Numbered from the stretch's first letter, positions 12,156 to 19,919 are shown. The stretch: 64,000 bases of DNA from Bdellovibrio reynosensis (GCF_022814725.1 NZ_CP093442.1:2542001-2606000); one strand, 5' to 3'. The notes: generated from the sequence alone by a model not told the origin. Numbers and translations: made by a program.

Positions 12156-12209
12156 ACGACTAGAATATCATCGCGCCTTTACGAAGATAGGCGAGATTTG
12201 AGAGTTAGC

Positions 12210-12959
12210 ATGAATTTGCACCAAAGTCTTAGATCAATAGTTCCTTTCCTTTTTCTAATTCTATGCTCTTCATTTGCTTTTGCCGAGGAAGCAGTAGTGC
12301 CTGCCACAGATACCAAGCAACCACTTGTTGAGGTCGAGGTTTATCAGGATTACTTGGCACCGTATAAGGAAAGAAGAGAAAACCACGGTTCCTACGTGAC
12401 GCTGGGATACGAAAGCTTAGAGTTAAAAAATTATATCTCAGCCATAGATGCAAAAACTTATGGGGATATGTTTGGCACCGCTCCGATTGCGTTGATGTAT
12501 TTAGGTGTAGATTATAAATACAATTTCGCCCTTGGTTCCTTAGCCTTCGGTATCCAATACGGTAAGGGCAATGTAACCGGAGAAGACAGCGGCGAAGAAA
12601 GAACCATGGATGTTACAAAGACGGGTGTAGGGTTCAAGTTCACACTAGACATGATTATGAACGAGCCCATCGTAGCACCCTATATCGGCTTAAATATCTG
12701 GAAGATGACAATCGCCGAAACAAACCCCACAACAAGTTTTTCCGCCGAGACCCAAATGGGCATGAACTACACGGTAGGATTGCTATTGCAACTTGATTGG
12801 CTAGATTATGAAACTGCCAAAAATACGACGTTCAATTGGGGACTAGAAAACACATTCATCGACGTCTATGCTACAAAATACGCTAAGACCAACGCCACTG
12901 ATGATGCGAACACTGAAACCGACATGATTTACGGTGGTGCCCTTCGCTTGGAATTTTAG
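12210..12959 (+). CDS. Predicted outer-membrane beta-barrel protein
   Basis: Unrecognised protein of about 249 residues. The signal peptide 'SIVPFLFLILCSSFAFAEE' is followed by alternating polar/hydrophobic strands ('GSYVTLGYESLEL', 'IALMYLGVDYKYNFALGSLAFGIQYG') and a C-terminal strand ending in Phe ('YGGALRLEF'), the usual BAM recognition ending. These features fit a small outer-membrane barrel. An in-frame TTG at 12198 would add four residues; ATG at 12210 is preferred because the signal peptide starts there, but the ribosome site is weak. Its stop touches the stop of the opposing transporter gene with no spacer. Confidence 0.72.
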   Translation: MNLHQSLRSIVPFLFLILCSSFAFAEEAVVPATDTKQPLVEVEVYQDYLAPYKERRENHGSYVTLGYESLELKNYISAIDAKTYGDMFGTAPIALMYLGVDYKYNFALGSLAFGIQYGKGNVTGEDSGEERTMDVTKTGVGFKFTLDMIMNEPIVAPYIGLNIWKMTIAETNPTTSFSAETQMGMNYTVGLLLQLDWLDYETAKNTTFNWGLENTFIDVYATKYAKTNATDDANTETDMIYGGALRLEF

Positions 12960-14234
12960 TTACTTAAAGGCTTGAGGATACTTTTCAGCAATAAATCCGG
13001 CAAGCTCCTCATTTGGTTTAGTCAAAAAAGTATTCAAAAATGGTACGAGGAAAATTAGTGGAAACAATAGTATTGCCGTAATTCCACTTGAAGCAATGAC
13101 TGTGCTAGCCCCATACTTTTCAACAAGCCCGCCGGCCATGCTAATCCCAATGGGAAGCGTCCCAGACATAAAAACGCCTATGAATGTAAAAATTCTTCCT
13201 ACGTATTGCGCTGGGATAGCAACTGAGATCTTTGTTTGAAATTGAATGTTCAACCAGGACATAAAAATCATTGAGGCAAAAAGAACTACCACACCGATCG
13301 CTAAACTTTTACTGAAGCCTAAAAGGAAGATGCTTGCGCCGGCCAAGATAAACGAAACGACCCAAAGCAATCTACCCGGAAGCATTTTTTGTCCATTGCC
13401 CAATGTAACTGCACCAACCATAGCACCAATACCCAGTGCAGATTCAACAACACCTAAATTCCAGGCAGGAAGCATGCGTTCCTTAAGGATTAGAACAGGC
13501 AAAGTTACGTGAAGATGAGAAAACATGAATTGAAAAGTTGCCGATAAAAGTAATGCATGAAAAATCACTTTTGCCTGAAAAAGGGATGAAAATCCTGCGT
13601 GCAAGTCTTTCCACCAGAGAGCAAACGATTCTTTTGAAGTTAATGAGGTTTTACTAAGGATGGGACCTTTTAATTCAAGTAGGGAGTTGAAAAGTAGGGC
13701 AAAACCATAAGAGGCAATATTAAAAAGCACAGCCATCGCCGGACCATATAAACCAAGAATGGTTCCTGAAACTGCAGGATTGACGAAGCTTTTTAGACCT
13801 GAAAACACCTGAGCGGTTTGCATACCCGAAGGAAGATCTTTTTCACTCACCAGAAATTTAGTAAGCCCTGCAACCGAAGACTCAAAACCCGCAGTGAAAA
13901 TAGCGCCAAGACATGAAATAAAAACTAAAGCAGAAATATTAAAATAATCAAAGTGCATCATTAGGAACACAGATAGTGACGTGAAAAGCCTTAATACATC
14001 ACAAAGAATCATAATCGCTTTTCTTGAATATCGGTCTACCAAAGGCGCAATTAAGGGCGGCAAAAAAATCTGAATCGCGGCAACGGGTGCTAAGATCATT
14101 GAAAATTGCAGCGCGGATCCAGACTTTTGCAAAACCCACCAGGATAGTGCGATGTAAGCAGTCACATCACCAAGAGAAGAAACCAGCTGCCCGATATTAT
14201 AATAAAAAAAGTTTTTACCTAATTTAGAATTCAC
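12960..14234 (-). CDS. MFS transporter (drug/siderophore exporter type)
   Basis: 424 residues with about 12 hydrophobic helices. 'VDRYSRKAIMILCDVLRLF' after helix 2 is the cytoplasmic loop 2-3 motif of the major facilitator superfamily, and 'GRIFTFIGVFMSGTLPIG' lies late in the second half. The arrangement resembles the EntS/MFS_3 group of exporters; the substrate cannot be read from the sequence. Starts with GTG at 14234, preceded by AAAGGA with a suitable spacer. Convergent with the outer-membrane protein gene, stop against stop. Confidence 0.85.
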   Translation of the reverse strand: MNSKLGKNFFYYNIGQLVSSLGDVTAYIALSWWVLQKSGSALQFSMILAPVAAIQIFLPPLIAPLVDRYSRKAIMILCDVLRLFTSLSVFLMMHFDYFNISALVFISCLGAIFTAGFESSVAGLTKFLVSEKDLPSGMQTAQVFSGLKSFVNPAVSGTILGLYGPAMAVLFNIASYGFALLFNSLLELKGPILSKTSLTSKESFALWWKDLHAGFSSLFQAKVIFHALLLSATFQFMFSHLHVTLPVLILKERMLPAWNLGVVESALGIGAMVGAVTLGNGQKMLPGRLLWVVSFILAGASIFLLGFSKSLAIGVVVLFASMIFMSWLNIQFQTKISVAIPAQYVGRIFTFIGVFMSGTLPIGISMAGGLVEKYGASTVIASSGITAILLFPLIFLVPFLNTFLTKPNEELAGFIAEKYPQAFK

Positions 14235-14247
14235 AGAAATTCCTTTA

Positions 14248-14382
14248 ATGGTTTGGTCTGAAGAGAAAAAGCCAGTTAGTCAAAAATTTCTAACCAACTC
14301 AGTACAAGCAATAGGTATGCTAGATTTCGAAGAACTCATTTCGCACTACAGCTTTAGCAATGCCCAGGAAATCCTGATTTAA
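14248..14382 (+). CDS. Possible 44-residue small protein
   Basis: Short open frame in the 268-base gap between the MFS gene and the Cys-rich exported protein gene. It begins MVWSEEKKPVSQKFL and ends SNAQEILI, with plausible amphipathic composition, but there is no Shine-Dalgarno sequence before the ATG and no recognisable domain. It may be chance or a remnant. The rest of the gap (14383-14502) holds an AT-rich stretch and nothing else convincing. Confidence 0.22.
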   Translation: MVWSEEKKPVSQKFLTNSVQAIGMLDFEELISHYSFSNAQEILI

Positions 14383-14502
14383 ATAAAAAGTCCTTATTTT
14401 AGGATATTGCCGCTTACCGGAAGCCATTTAAATCGAGTTGAAAAGCAAGGTGGGTGGCCCTGCAATTGCTCAGATACCTTTGGGCTATTGAAAGGGCTGT
14501 CG

Positions 14503-15177
14503 ATGAATTCAATTAAAAATTATGGATCTTTAATAATGTTCCTGTGGGTTTTTCTTAGCGCGGCAGCTGCCGCTGGCGATGCCTGCCGCACCCCCAGTCC
14601 GAAACAGTGTGGCTTTTACCGAAGCTGCGTTGAAACTAAGTATAATTGCGGAGGCCAAGGATATCCCATTGCATACGGTGAAAAATACTGTGAACGATTT
14701 CTAAGTCTTACTTATAAGGACTTATCACTTAAGGGCATACAGTGGAGAGATGCAACGTTGGTCTGCCTTCAAAATCAAATATCCAATCTTTTATATAGTT
14801 CAAACAACGTTAGAACGTGTGGCGATTTAAAAGCATTTGCGTTTGATACCCATGCCGGATGCTACACTCAAAAAGGCAATTCGATTTGTGATCTTAGCTA
14901 CGATGAAATGACGACTATCGGAAATACCGTCGATGTCGGTGACGTTATGACGATCAATGGCGTGTCGCAAATTTTCAGTGTTCTAAAAACTTGCTACAGT
15001 CCATGGAAAAAAGAGTTAGTTCTTTTAAGATCAAAACAAGCAGCGCTAAAGTCTAACGTGATGGTATTCTCAATGAATCACTATGGCGACGAAAGAAATG
15101 TAAAAGAACTTGAAAAAATTGAAATTCAAATTCATCAGCTAGAAAAAAAGATGGAGCTAATCAATGAAGTCCCTTAA
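14503..15177 (+). CDS. Cys-rich exported protein, possibly stanniocalcin-like
   Basis: About 224 residues from the ATG at 14503, which follows GAAAGGG and opens directly into a signal peptide (helix ending AAAAAGDAC). An upstream in-frame ATG at 14407 would put 32 unlikely residues ahead of it. The mature part has about ten Cys in a pattern 'CGFYRSC', 'YGEKYCERF', 'WRDATLVCLQ', 'RTCGDLKAFAFDTHAGCY', 'SICDLS', then one later Cys and a charged C-terminal helix. The helix-Cys spacing (CLQ, then CY, then SIC) recalls the stanniocalcin fold, known mainly from eukaryotes; this is a visual resemblance, not proof. It overlaps the next gene by 14 bases. Disulfides imply a periplasmic or secreted location. 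Confidence 0.6.
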   Translation: MNSIKNYGSLIMFLWVFLSAAAAAGDACRTPSPKQCGFYRSCVETKYNCGGQGYPIAYGEKYCERFLSLTYKDLSLKGIQWRDATLVCLQNQISNLLYSSNNVRTCGDLKAFAFDTHAGCYTQKGNSICDLSYDEMTTIGNTVDVGDVMTINGVSQIFSVLKTCYSPWKKELVLLRSKQAALKSNVMVFSMNHYGDERNVKELEKIEIQIHQLEKKMELINEVP

Positions 15178-15577
15178 TAAATTGAAGTTAATCAGATCAC
15201 TATTAACTGCAACAGCAGGCGCATTGATTTATCTAAGTATCTTCGGATTGGCTGATAACAACTTCATTAAGTGGTGGTTTATTCCATCAACCTTAGCCGG
15301 TACCATTTCATGGGCATACCTAACAGCATTATCGAAAAAGCCATGGTGGGTCTATATCGTCGCAAATATCGCAACAGTATGGATTGTATTCGTGGCATTA
15401 ATGGTAACACCCCTTAGCAACGCACCAAAACATTATACAGACATCTCCGCAATCATCGTTCTTGGGGGACTTGGTACGTTGGTGTTCTTTAGACAGATTC
15501 TTATTATTATGCCGATATATGTTTTGGTTGATTGGTATTTAACCAGAAACAATCAAAATTCTGATGGAAAAATTTAG
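15164..15577 (+). CDS. Small integral membrane protein
   Basis: 137 residues with four hydrophobic segments (about residues 11-28, 40-53, 60-80 and 95-125), containing 'WWFIPSTLAGTISWAYLTAL' and 'KPWWVYIVANIATVWIVFVAL'. No known family recognised. The ATG lies 14 bases inside the preceding Cys-rich gene, so the pair is probably co-translated and may act together in the envelope. Confidence 0.65.
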   Translation: MKSLNKLKLIRSLLTATAGALIYLSIFGLADNNFIKWWFIPSTLAGTISWAYLTALSKKPWWVYIVANIATVWIVFVALMVTPLSNAPKHYTDISAIIVLGGLGTLVFFRQILIIMPIYVLVDWYLTRNNQNSDGKI

Positions 15578-15640
15578 ACGTAAAAGACTCTATGATATCT
15601 GTGATTTTTTGATCGAATAATAAATTCATGCGAGTTTAAA

Positions 15641-16774
15641 TTAGAGAGTGTCTTTAAGACTCGCACTACTATTAAAGGTTAATGACACCTGAGTGCCAAT
15701 GCCGGGCTTTGAAACTACTTTACATGAACCATTCCACGCCTCCATTTGCCGAAATGTCGAGTACAGACCGATACCATTTCCATTATTCTTCGTAGTGATT
15801 TCCTTTTTTCCAATAGTTTCTAGCACATCTCCGGAAATACCAACTCCATAGTCGGTAATAGTAATTAAGGTTCTATCGGAAAAACAATTGATGGCTATTA
15901 CTACGCTTTTATGTTGGTCACTAGCTTCAACAGAATTATTAACAAGGTTGGAAATTATTCTGGTTAGACTTTCGGGTTCTATTTCCAGCAACACCTCCTC
16001 GTTATCAGTTCTAAGCTCAAAGTTAAAGTCTGCATAAAGCGCGGTCTTCTCTCGCAAAAGATTTTTAATAATAGGGACTATGTTTATTTTTTTTGTGTGT
16101 GATTCGCCGGGAAAATCTGACTGTTTACTGAGAGTATCCTTTTTGTACTGAATAAGTAGGTCATCAGCTATGGCGTTGATTCTTGTAACGACGGCAGAGA
16201 TAATATCAGTTGAACCTGCAATAGATGTTTTTGCCGTAACAATAGCATTCAAGGCGCTTAGAGGTGATCTTATATCATGTGCCAAACGTCGAGCCATAGA
16301 CTCTGCGACCACAGCATTTTTGAGTTTGATTTGAACCCGAATTTCAGCATCGATTTTTTTCCTTTCGAAGTAGAAAAAAATCAAAATAACCATGAACAAG
16401 ATAAGTGCGAAAGTCAAAATTAAGTACAGGATATTTAAAACATTGTACTGGAAAATAAACTTTAGATCGTAAAGATTCAGCTCTATTCGTATATCGAATT
16501 TTGAGGCTTGGCCCATCTTGAAAAGCTGACTGTTAGTATTTTCAATGATCTCGACCATCGAAAATACGCTGGGGATAACCGGATGAATTACTCTCTGAAC
16601 GCTCCTTAGATCATGCGTAACTGCGAAATTGTATACTGAGTTGCTTATCGAAATCGCAAACTCTTGCTTTTTGTTCGAAATAGTTATTAGCACTGAACCT
16701 ATGACCACTAATAATAGTGAGAGGTAAAGAACAGTAACTTTTAAAAGCAATCTTTTTGTAAGTCGATCAATCAT
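15641..16774 (-). CDS. Membrane-bound sensor histidine kinase
   Basis: 377 residues. Two membrane helices (about residues 9-29 and 114-136) bracket a periplasmic sensor loop of about 85 residues. They are followed by the phospho-acceptor helix 'ARRLAHDIRSPLSALN' with the H-box His, and a HATPase domain with N-box 'IISNLVNNSVEAS', G1 'DYGVGIS' and G2 'GNGIGLYSTFRQ'. All kinase motifs look intact. It is the last gene of the YcaO operon, 3 bases after the ycaO-like stop. No response regulator gene adjoins it, so its partner lies elsewhere. It is AT-rich like its operon partners. Confidence 0.88.
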   Translation of the reverse strand: MIDRLTKRLLLKVTVLYLSLLLVVIGSVLITISNKKQEFAISISNSVYNFAVTHDLRSVQRVIHPVIPSVFSMVEIIENTNSQLFKMGQASKFDIRIELNLYDLKFIFQYNVLNILYLILTFALILFMVILIFFYFERKKIDAEIRVQIKLKNAVVAESMARRLAHDIRSPLSALNAIVTAKTSIAGSTDIISAVVTRINAIADDLLIQYKKDTLSKQSDFPGESHTKKINIVPIIKNLLREKTALYADFNFELRTDNEEVLLEIEPESLTRIISNLVNNSVEASDQHKSVVIAINCFSDRTLITITDYGVGISGDVLETIGKKEITTKNNGNGIGLYSTFRQMEAWNGSCKVVSKPGIGTQVSLTFNSSASLKDTL

Positions 16775-16777
16775 TTA

Positions 16778-17773
16778 TTACCTAAGCGGATGAGGAAATA
16801 GGTTTAGATCTATAAAATTTAAATTTTTATTATTAGAAAATAGGCGTAGTCGGCCGAGATTGATGTCATTAGGCTTTGGTATACCAAGGTAAAGCGATTG
16901 GAGATCTTTACATTTAGCTTGCGCAAACTTTAAAGGCGCAGACTTTAAATCACTGAATCCAGTTTCCAAAATGCTATACTGTATTGTATCAACTTTAAAA
17001 TTTTTTGGCGGTATCAGAGCATTGGGCTCAGTATTAAAATATTCTGCGATCGAATTATAGAAATCCAAATTTAGGGCAAGATTACCGTGATCCAAGAAAG
17101 TCGGCGAATCGATCTTTGAAAAATCGTCTATTGTAATATTATTTATTGTTGTAGGGTGGAAAATTATATTTGAAGCCTGCCTAAAACATTCGATCAGTGA
17201 TTTCTCAAGCGATTTTGTTCGATCCGTAGATGACCCCAAGCCTATCTCAATACCAAAAGGAACTTTGAAATTAATTCCAAATAACGCTGTAGCATAAACA
17301 CCCACTCCGTTAATTTCGCCCAAAAAATAACTTTTTGTTTTAAGAAGGTTTCTTGAGATCTCAGTAAAAAATAAATCATATTCTTTCTTTAAAACAGTCG
17401 GCAGCGGAATTTCATAATATGGTTTTTTTGTTAAATAATGAGATAGAAACAAATCACGTTCAATTAATTCCGAACAAGCAGCTGTTTTAGCCTCTGATAT
17501 GCTTAGATGTGCTGCGACGCCATTTGAAGTGTCAATGTGGTTATGTGTGAGAACCGAACGTTCGATTGCTTCCGCTGTCGCCTTATTAATAGCAATGCTT
17601 TTATCTTTGTCAGTTCCTCTTCCGGAAAAAAACCGACCTTCAGATTGAATTGTAACTTCACAATCATGGATATCAATTCCCCAAAGCTGGGGCCAATTAA
17701 GCACCTTAACTTTAAAATCGATTTTCTCTTGATTGATAAGCGTCCAAATAGCTAATTCATTTTCACTTGCCAT
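16778..17773 (-). CDS. Stand-alone YcaO-domain protein
   Basis: 331 residues. YcaO enzymes use ATP to activate peptide backbone amides, making azolines, thioamides or amidines in RiPPs and modified proteins. The ATP/Mg-binding features are visible: 'ATAEAIER' (E68, E71, R72), 'GVAAHLSISEA' followed by 'ELIERD' (E102, E105, R106), and 'LIECFRQ' (E195, R198). The last residues are FPHPLR, recalling the Pro-rich C-terminus of azoline-forming YcaO proteins, though shortened. It is shorter than E. coli YcaO (about 586) and typical cyclodehydratases (about 400 or more). No partner E1-like, TfuA or dehydrogenase gene lies nearby. It starts 22 bases inside the solute-binding gene. Substrate unknown. 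Confidence 0.82.
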   Translation of the reverse strand: MASENELAIWTLINQEKIDFKVKVLNWPQLWGIDIHDCEVTIQSEGRFFSGRGTDKDKSIAINKATAEAIERSVLTHNHIDTSNGVAAHLSISEAKTAACSELIERDLFLSHYLTKKPYYEIPLPTVLKKEYDLFFTEISRNLLKTKSYFLGEINGVGVYATALFGINFKVPFGIEIGLGSSTDRTKSLEKSLIECFRQASNIIFHPTTINNITIDDFSKIDSPTFLDHGNLALNLDFYNSIAEYFNTEPNALIPPKNFKVDTIQYSILETGFSDLKSAPLKFAQAKCKDLQSLYLGIPKPNDINLGRLRLFSNNKNLNFIDLNLFPHPLR

Positions 17774-19305
17774 AAATTATATGTCGCACTGAGCCTCGTC
17801 ATTTCAACACGAATATCCTTTTTATGAATCACTGTATATGGGGATACGCTATGAGGATACATGGCAACCTTTTTAAGGAAGCTGAAGTGTAATTCATTTA
17901 CTAATGCTAGCGACCTTTCGGGCGACTTTTCTTTTATGAAAGCGTCCAACCACATCTTCCCCTCATGGGCTGATAGTCCAAAATTTAGTTGCGAAAAATT
18001 ATAACTGAGAAGGGAGTAATCAGTGTCAAAGGCTACATCCGTGACGCCACTAAAAACATCGCCAGGCCGGTCCTCTGGCGCATAAGATAAATACCCTTTG
18101 TCGAGTAAATATGGTTCAAAATATGAGTTGATATCAAAAAAATTGCCCCAGTTTTTTATTAAACTTTTGCTTGCTAGAAATTCCATTTTTCGCTTGGGAT
18201 GAAACTTTTGTCCGTAATCAGCAGCATCCAAACGCATTTTTTCAATTTGTTCAAGTTGGTCGGTTGTTAATGATCCAGCTGAGGCAAACTGAAAAAACTG
18301 CATGGTGTTTTGGCTGCCGTAGTTAACGATATTTTGCTTTCTTCTGTTCTCGACAAATTTAAAAGCAGCGTAAGCTCTCTCTTCCGGAGTAAAGTCGTGC
18401 ATTGCTTTCAGATTAAAGAAGATTGTACTTACTTTGATTGGCTCTGTTGCAAAAATTGTGAAGTCGTTATGATCCTCAAAAAGGTTATTTAGCATTTTTG
18501 GCATGTAACTAAAATCTGGGCCAATTATATCGATCTTGTCTTCTCGTACCAAATCGACAATTGAATTATAATCGTACGGAACCATTTGAATAAGCTGGGG
18601 CATGTCTTCAGAGTAGAGCTGGGAAGTCATATTCGCTCGCAGCACTATTTTTCCATCAGATGAATCTTTATCTACGTAATAAGCACCAGAAGTATTTCTG
18701 AAATCAGTTATTTCTAATGATAGGGGATCGACAGAATTTTCAGGTATAATTCGATGGTCAGGCGAAGATAGAAGTGGAATCAAAATTTTTCCGAGATATT
18801 CTTCAACTGGAGTAATTATCAAAGTATCTTCAATGATTTTTAACCCAGGGCACTCGTCTGAAATCTTTTTACCATCCCAGTTAGGGCAAAGGATTCTCGC
18901 CGTGTCGCCATGTGTATTGTTTTTATCTAATATAAGGCGTTTCAACGAAAATAGAGCATCTGCCGCCCCTACGGGTTTACCGTCGACCGATCTAAATCCT
19001 CTTTTAAATTCGATGTGAAGACTTCCGTTGCGCCAATAAAATTTGCTAGCCAATCCCGGAACATAATTTCCATCATTATCTACGTCAATAATTGGACTAT
19101 ACAGGTTCATTAATAGTAACGCGTCTGAGGCACTGTGGATTCTTCTAGTGTCAAGAGATCTGGCTGATGATTTATGCGCTGTTGCTGCCCTTAGAATACG
19201 GTTGCTAATTTTGGTGCTTGTCATCTTTATACCCAAAGACAAAAAAATGCCTGCAGTTAGCAGGCACGTAAGAATAATAATTTTGCGAATCGTAAATGGA
19301 TTCAT
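17752..19305 (-). CDS. Membrane-anchored solute-binding protein, family 5 (peptide-binding type)
   Basis: 517 residues. An N-terminal hydrophobic segment ('IIILTCLLTAGIFLSLGI') acts as an uncleaved anchor or signal. The body resembles extracellular SBP family 5 (OppA/DppA/SgrR): 'YSPIIDVDNDGNYVPGLAS', 'FKRGFRSVDGKPVGAADALFSLKRL' and 'IIDFRNTSGAY'-like 'EITDFRNTSGAYYV'. Such domains bind peptides or similar ligands. No ABC permease or ATPase gene adjoins it, so it may sense or capture rather than feed a local importer. ATGA overlap with the small exported protein gene upstream and 22-base overlap with the YcaO gene downstream. Confidence 0.82.
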   Translation of the reverse strand: MNPFTIRKIIILTCLLTAGIFLSLGIKMTSTKISNRILRAATAHKSSARSLDTRRIHSASDALLLMNLYSPIIDVDNDGNYVPGLASKFYWRNGSLHIEFKRGFRSVDGKPVGAADALFSLKRLILDKNNTHGDTARILCPNWDGKKISDECPGLKIIEDTLIITPVEEYLGKILIPLLSSPDHRIIPENSVDPLSLEITDFRNTSGAYYVDKDSSDGKIVLRANMTSQLYSEDMPQLIQMVPYDYNSIVDLVREDKIDIIGPDFSYMPKMLNNLFEDHNDFTIFATEPIKVSTIFFNLKAMHDFTPEERAYAAFKFVENRRKQNIVNYGSQNTMQFFQFASAGSLTTDQLEQIEKMRLDAADYGQKFHPKRKMEFLASKSLIKNWGNFFDINSYFEPYLLDKGYLSYAPEDRPGDVFSGVTDVAFDTDYSLLSYNFSQLNFGLSAHEGKMWLDAFIKEKSPERSLALVNELHFSFLKKVAMYPHSVSPYTVIHKKDIRVEMTRLSATYNLWQVKMN

Positions 19306-19640
19306 TTCGTCCTAACATCAGTTTCATTACCAGTACAAATTACGCTTTTTGTGGCGTCTAATTGTTCAACTCTTTTCTTATTCAAAAGATCGGTAATGTC
19401 CGTATTTAGGATATAATGACCAGTCGCCGGATCATAGGTTAATTTTCCACCAATGATAAGTTTTTTGAGGACTTCGGCGTCCTGTGAGTGATTGTCTAAA
19501 GTGTTAAGTATTTGGACAATCTCAAATTTTGCCATCCTTTGATCAACTTGAACTATTGCTTGATCTGCTTGGGTAACAGCAGGGGAGCCTAAAGATATCA
19601 AAGAAAGTAAGGAGATAAGTTCGATTCTAGTTAGTTTCAT
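19302..19640 (-). CDS. Small exported protein, first complete gene of the YcaO operon
   Basis: 112 residues with an N-terminal hydrophobic segment ending about SPAVTQADQA, a probable signal peptide. The remainder is helical then beta-like ('GGKLTYDPATGHYILNTDITDLL') and carries one Cys (C102) in a Ser/Thr-containing C-terminal tail 'TKSVICTGNETDVRTK'. The ATG follows AAGGA with a good spacer. The stop overlaps the SBP start as ATGA. It could be a substrate of the YcaO enzyme (small, single Cys near the end) or a periplasmic partner of the SBP and kinase. No family recognised. Confidence 0.62.
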   Translation of the reverse strand: MKLTRIELISLLSLISLGSPAVTQADQAIVQVDQRMAKFEIVQILNTLDNHSQDAEVLKKLIIGGKLTYDPATGHYILNTDITDLLNKKRVEQLDATKSVICTGNETDVRTK

Positions 19641-19720
19641 ATAAAGTTCCTTTCAACATACTCTTCTCTAGCAAGTTTAAGGCCATAAACAATAGTGTCT
19701 TTATGATACTTACCTTGCAC
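19637..19720 (-). pseudogene. Short reading frame, possible remnant of a LivJ-type binding protein
   Basis: The minus-strand frame open from about 19768 reads 'VRILLGSNDSYEDVQG' then 'TIVYGLKLAREEYVERNFI' and stops with TGA overlapping the ATG of the small exported protein (ATGA). This resembles the N-terminal strand and helix of type-1 periplasmic binding proteins of the LivJ kind (I-x-I-G..GL-x-LA-x-EE). The only start in frame is a GTG at 19720 with GAGGA too close to it, so it may be a decayed gene fragment or a tiny leader. Low certainty. The rest of the 279-base gap up to mfd is AT-rich, with no clear promoter. Confidence 0.3.
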
Positions 19721-19919
19721 ATCCTCATAAGAATCATTGCTGCCAAGTAATATGCGAACACTATGTTTTTAGCGTTATATCGAGCTTAAAAGATTGGGTG
19801 TTATGCCTTTAAAGAAAGGTTATTTGAAGCGCAAGGAGCTCATATTTAATCAAAATATCCAAAATTATTTCTCAAGGAATAAAGTAGAATTAAAAATGTA
19901 TTAAAAGATCCAAGAGATA

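Follow-up and report, generated by a model that had tools for sequence, protein, structure and literature searches.

A conserved four-gene YcaO operon of Bdellovibrio reynosensis, a candidate modified-peptide signalling module found beside conjugation genes in many relatives

The stretch of Bdellovibrio reynosensis DNA analyzed in this work (64,000 nucleotides, referred to as the window) carries between positions 15641 and 19640 four open reading frames on the minus strand, encoding a small exported protein, an anchored OppA-like binding protein (SBP), a stand-alone YcaO enzyme and a two-helix histidine kinase (Table 1). The gene order and coordinates given in an earlier note on this DNA were confirmed: the small gene overlaps the SBP gene by 4 bases (19302-19305), the SBP gene overlaps the YcaO gene by 22 bases (17752-17773), and a gap of 3 bases (16775-16777) separates the YcaO gene from the kinase gene. 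The operon had also been described as visibly AT-rich, and no other 4-kb stretch of the window is richer in AT, although the figures given then (33% versus 55% GC) overstated the difference; the GC content is 37.4% for the operon and 43.4% for the window outside the island that carries it. A second copy of the operon in the same genome, a conserved C-terminal cysteine, a SagB-type dehydrogenase, a sigma-54 regulator, a link to conjugation genes and the genomic island itself, all described below, were absent from that note.

Table 1 Features of the operon and its surroundings, in window coordinates
Feature	Position	Strand	Basis
Sensor histidine kinase, 377 aa	15641..16774	-	Two membrane helices, H166, HATPase_c; best models ZraS/AtoS
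Stand-alone YcaO, 331 aa, C-terminus ...FPHPLR	16778..17773	-	ATP-binding Glu/Arg motifs intact; fold
Peptide-binding protein (SBP family 5, OppA-like), 517 aa	17752..19305	-	Profile, fold, N-terminal anchor helix 3-29
Small exported protein, 112 aa, candidate RiPP precursor	19302..19640	-	Signal-peptide-like start and C-terminal core TKSVICTGNETDVRTK
Putative core, residues 95-112, with Cys102 (codon 19335-19337)	19305..19358	-	C102 invariant
Sigma-54-type -24/-12 promoter-like site TGGCCTTAAACTTGCT	19670..19685	-	45 nt upstream of small gene
AT-rich island of ~7 kb: operon, MFS transporter and two ORFs without assigned function	12960..19919	.	Congener comparison

The YcaO protein of the window matches PF02624 with 38.8 bits (cut-off 25.7) and contains all the ATP-binding residues ascribed to it earlier (E68/E71/R72, E102/E105/R106, E195/R198). 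Across 16 family members E68, R72, E102, E105, R106 and E195 show no variation, and E71 almost none. The AF2 model (pLDDT 89.9) finds the ATP-bound YcaO 6cib in Foldseek (E 1.4e-9), and the family profile matches MJ1094, McbD, TruD and MusD. The view that this enzyme differs from the housekeeping type was borne out, since the housekeeping model TIGR00702 gave no match with the window protein and the best NCBIfam model was that of the SagD cyclodehydratase, TIGR03604 (30.1 bits, with 50.8 bits for the second copy, both under the cut-off of 219). The labelling of the housekeeping enzyme as S12-type has to be corrected, as E. coli YcaO is now assigned to uL16 thioamidation (PMC13063428); the window protein has the ATP-activating fold in common with it but is shorter and bound in an operon with a candidate precursor. 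The sequence terminates in PHPLR, a partial PxPxP retaining the first two prolines only, the C-terminal motif of azoline-forming YcaOs (cited in PMC12338566). The shorter YcaOs (~265 aa) of many conjugation-linked loci do not have the PHP end, and activity may therefore differ between branches.

An E1-like or ocin-ThiF partner is found neither in the window operon nor as a recurrent gene in the neighbourhoods read, where the only recurrent families are those of the SBP, the histidine kinase, the response regulator, the small ORF, tra genes and recombinases. There is no TfuA among the annotated neighbours in the window, and the module has no linked protease, exporter or E1-like/RRE partner. The earlier statement that E1-like protein, TfuA, dehydrogenase and exporter are all missing nearby holds for the window operon; elsewhere in the genome a SagB-family dehydrogenase gene adjoins the second copy (locus L029). 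The L029 protein, of 332 aa and divergently transcribed, matches TIGR03605 with E 1e-16 and 60.7 bits, under the cut-off of 78.4; a further SagB-family gene adjoins L033. Bottromycin provides a precedent for stand-alone YcaOs that are suspected of forming thiazoline from Cys (PMC4603692). At three other loci of the phylum (L119, L120 and L142) YcaO genes without linked SBP or kinase have a SagB-like gene nearby, and these are possibly conventional azole RiPP clusters.

Taken alone, the window SBP matches SBP_bac_5 weakly (17.1 bits, below the cut-off of 32.4). Its OppA-like identity is nevertheless confirmed, because the family profile matches OppA, MppA and the pheromone receptor PrgZ (4faj, 3.7e-10) and the model displays an OppA fold after the membrane helix (Foldseek to OppA 2z23, E 2.3e-24). 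No lipobox was seen beside the N-terminal anchor helix, no ABC permease gene adjoins the SBP gene in the window, and a search of a plasmid collection for the SBP returned no match. The window kinase has helices at about residues 14-32 and 115-133 enclosing a periplasmic loop of ~80 aa, a phospho-acceptor histidine within the motif AHDIRSP and an HATPase_c domain (60 bits); ZraS and AtoS, its best models, are kinases of sigma-54 activators. Nearly all module kinases likewise have two helices, with a periplasmic loop of about 80-130 residues. Some of those without a linked regulator bear C-terminal extensions that look receiver-like by eye, and a Pfam scan of two of them (L030 and L033) detected no receiver domain. 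We consider it probable that the SBP and kinase sense the peptide made by the operon.

In nearly all of the congeners examined, the homologue of window 12198-12959 comes immediately after mfd; in the window genome the segment 12960-19919 intervenes. Two congeners have ~1.3 kb of different DNA at the mfd site and one further contig was too short to judge. Given the empty site in nearly all congeners, the window operon therefore lies in a horizontally variable island. The island also contains an MFS transporter gene (12960-14234), the product of which resembles macrolide-efflux and EntS exporters, and on the plus strand two overlapping ORFs (14407-15577) for a Cys-rich protein of 256 aa and a hydrophobic one of 137 aa. 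The MFS gene was rejected as a conserved partner of the module: a gene of the same family was seen near the module only at L044, which was treated as chance. No TraC homologue was found in the window genome, and no tra genes or module-type regulator accompany the island copy. Among the ten closest NtrC-like proteins encoded in the genome there was no module-clade regulator for the window kinase. The window copy thus represents a version of the module on a chromosomal island, lacking both conjugation genes and a linked regulator of its own.

The window genome (3.58 Mb, one contig) encodes a second related YcaO at L029, within the same four genes in the same order but diverged (small protein 94 aa, SBP 511, YcaO 331, kinase 414). 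In the SBP tree the window unit and L029 fall into different clades, L029 grouping with the likewise SagB-bearing L033; the second copy is therefore no recent duplication. In a search with a YcaO alignment, relatives were present in 112 of 369 genomes of the phylum, about a third. We read 85 neighbourhoods outside the window. Of the 87 YcaO genes seen, 76 have the SBP gene next door and 75 of these the kinase gene too, far above chance when loci are counted as they are, with relatedness ignored. Two gene orders recur, regulator-small-SBP-YcaO-kinase and YcaO-small-SBP-kinase-regulator. The four genes almost certainly form a conserved unit. This co-occurrence, a test that the earlier note had proposed, upholds the genetic side of the single pathway envisaged there (a peptide modified by YcaO, caught by the binding protein and reported by the kinase), while its chemistry and sensing we still infer. 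Neither of the two outcomes that the note named as refuting its model, chance-level co-occurrence and a housekeeping-type YcaO, was obtained. A contig search with the single window YcaO sequence gave no match; repeated with an alignment of close members it retrieved only records of Bdellovibrionaceae, Bdellovibrionales and Bdellovibrionota and one of Oligoflexia. A literature search restricted to open-licence papers found no published description of the four-gene set. At one locus of a relative (L034:10719-15500, genome G025) a long CRISPR array with a 36-nt repeat GTTCTGATTGGCTCACAGATTCCCATCTGTTATTCT, a 66-nt period and more than 30 units lies just upstream of the module and adjoins cas2-like and cas1-like ORFs.

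An NtrC-like response regulator, composed of a receiver and a sigma-54 activator domain, is linked to the module at 45 loci, and 41 of the 45 proteins belong to one clade. With a matrix built from the consensus, -24/-12 sites (score >=12, within 150 nt of the first gene) were found before 22 of 74 modules versus 29 of 1137 other genes (2.6%; p 3e-15, relatedness ignored), typically ~40 nt upstream of the first gene. No such site precedes the first gene of the second copy. The motif, the NtrC-like partner at 45 loci and the ZraS/AtoS-like kinase together therefore support autoinduction through sigma-54.

At 23 loci, all of them with a response regulator, genes of a conjugative T4SS (TrbC/VirB2, TraL, TraC/VirB4 and others) are located within about 10 kb of the module, a locus counting as conjugation-linked when its fetched flanks contained two or more conjugation genes. 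One element was confirmed to encode the coupling protein TraD/VirD4, VirB9/CagX, VirB8, TrbL/VirB6 and a serine recombinase. A YcaO gene is no more than 15 kb away from TraC in 24 of 150 cases, versus ~1.2 expected from random placement, the count being a lower bound because of draft contigs. On one contig (L155-L158, G195:C7:20000-70000) two T4SS sets occur within about 45 kb, each with a module of different gene order, and on another (L159-L161, G028:C46) tandem tra operons are each followed by a serine recombinase-like gene or relatives, the module standing beside the first. A sigma-54 site points into the putative start of the tra operon at only one of the 23 loci (L137). Sigma-54 control of tra promoters as a general rule was rejected, as tra operons generally have no such sites, and some congener elements possess tra genes and no module; control of transfer is therefore a hypothesis drawn from linkage. 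We put at somewhat under even the chance that the module controls conjugation where the two are neighbours. These same two observations, together with the 52 of 75 SBP-YcaO-kinase loci that have no T4SS genes in the fetched flanks, would also be expected if the module were mere cargo of mobile elements, sensing an environmental or prey-derived peptide unconnected with transfer. Chance carriage does not readily explain why the module stands beside tra operons in both deep clades of the SBP tree, far above random placement, nor why it brings its own candidate ligand gene, and we regard the cargo explanation as credible but rather unlikely.

The candidate ligand is the small protein, which hardly any module lacks. 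It was analyzed at the 64 loci where a small ORF abuts the SBP gene, with 445 short ORFs as controls. A signal-peptide-like start is present in 59 of the 64 versus 94 of the 445, and such a start combined with a C-terminal Cys in 47 versus 26. A Cys occurs within the last 25 residues in 80% of the module ORFs, the shares among control genes being 33% for short and 21% for long ones, and in the preceding 25 residues in 30% of the module ORFs; 13 of the 64 chosen ORFs have no C-terminal Cys. Ile or Val directly precedes this Cys in 30 of 51 proteins, and in an alignment of 15 divergent small proteins the window C102 is the sole invariant column. Examples of such C-termini are ..TKSVICTGNETDVRTK in the window, ..SSGIRCGGVPKPN in L029, ..PNVICVGSQ in L047 and ..GGTICF in L093. 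No difference in variability between core and leader was found in the small proteins. Two precursor-like proteins (L045:5614-6024, 136 aa, and L046:10058-10540, 160 aa) have a leader-like segment duplicated internally.

The pattern of Cys and signal start, the neighbouring YcaO and the SagB gene in two units therefore make up a RiPP-precursor signature, in which the C-terminal Cys is the expected site of modification. We think it quite likely that the small protein is the YcaO substrate, with the C-terminal Cys as the predicted target. Sec-type signal peptides are not commonly known from RiPP precursors, and with no protease, exporter or E1/RRE partner linked and the YcaO truncated at many loci, the small protein could instead remain unmodified and serve the SBP-kinase sensor in the periplasm as an accessory, whether inhibitory or co-sensing, while YcaO acts on another target such as the SBP, the kinase or a ribosomal protein. 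Against this stand the one invariant Cys at an otherwise divergent C-terminus, absent from most control small ORFs, SagB beside two units, and the adjacency of the small gene to the SBP gene in both gene orders; we consider an accessory role distinctly unlikely. That the operon makes and responds to an antimicrobial or prey-directed azol(in)e RiPP, with the SBP and kinase as an immunity or regulatory sensor as in bacteriocin autoregulation, would suit the typical pairing of YcaO and SagB in antibiotic azole RiPPs, the MFS transporter in the island and the predatory lineage of the hosts, but is improbable in view of the single conserved heterocyclisable Cys, the lack of a dedicated exporter or immunity gene recurrent across loci and the nature of the additional partners that do recur, namely a regulator and conjugation genes.

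We therefore return to the reading that we hold to be probable, namely that the operon is a self-encoded signalling module whose YcaO-modified peptide is sensed by the SBP and kinase, linked to conjugation in many relatives. Using ATP, the stand-alone YcaO would modify the small protein close to its single C-terminal Cys. The most likely product is a thiazoline formed by cyclisation, and in the SagB-bearing variants SagB would oxidise this ring to a thiazole. The modified protein would be exported via Sec and its C-terminal piece released. The mature peptide would then be bound in the periplasm by the anchored OppA-like protein which, instead of serving an ABC importer, would relay its state to the adjacent two-helix kinase. 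The kinase would act on the NtrC-like sigma-54 activator, turning on the module's own promoter, and where the module is part of an integrative conjugative element this circuit may well time conjugation too.

Several known systems share parts of this scheme. The pheromone-responsive conjugation of Enterococcus pCF10/pAD1, with the receptor PrgZ/TraC and a Sec-exported peptide precursor (PMC7117660), has in common with the module a family-5 SBP peptide receptor linked to a conjugative T4SS and the Sec-exported precursor, the SBP profile matching PrgZ itself. It differs in being Gram-positive, in using an unmodified peptide and in the route of that peptide, which the receptor delivers to the Opp importer and to a cytoplasmic regulator; in the module the place of these is taken by a YcaO, a kinase in the membrane and a sigma-54 regulator, with the ligand gene in the same operon. 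ICEBs1 of B. subtilis encodes its own exported peptide signal through RapI-PhrI (PMC4010749), in which it resembles the module, but that peptide is unmodified, imported and acts inside the cell, and there is no YcaO, SBP-kinase pair or sigma-54 regulator. The TOMM/LAP azol(in)e pathways and stand-alone-YcaO RiPPs such as bottromycin share the canonical YcaO ATP pocket, a Cys in the presumed core and, in the second copy, SagB; the module departs from them in having no C/E1 partner, a Sec-type precursor, a single conserved Cys, a receptor and kinase in the operon and a linkage to conjugation. The NtrBC, ZraSR and AtoSC systems correspond to it in their kinases and in a response regulator that is a sigma-54 activator, whereas the module kinase has an anchored OppA-like protein and a YcaO as its partners. 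By analogy, the closest functional counterparts of the module would be self-encoded peptide pheromone systems, from which it would differ by its RiPP-type chemistry and by a membrane kinase that takes the place of import.

Peptide signals controlling conjugation are known from Gram-positive bacteria, and RiPPs have been studied mostly as antibiotics. The gene set analyzed here is widespread in Bdellovibrio-like bacteria, as far as we found has not been described before, and appears to make a small, modified, exported peptide; its place beside conjugation genes in many relatives would make it a peptide-signal switch for Gram-negative mobile DNA. More tentatively, it might represent a ribosomal, YcaO-modified sex pheromone of Gram-negative bacteria, with integrative conjugative elements of Bdellovibrionota encoding a heterocycle peptide that is read by receptor, kinase and sigma-54 regulator to time conjugation, and with islands like that of the window as domesticated or free-standing signalling versions. 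If true, this would join the fields of conjugation signals and RiPPs, offer a candidate substrate for many stand-alone YcaO enzymes and reveal a cell-cell signal in a predatory bacterial lineage.
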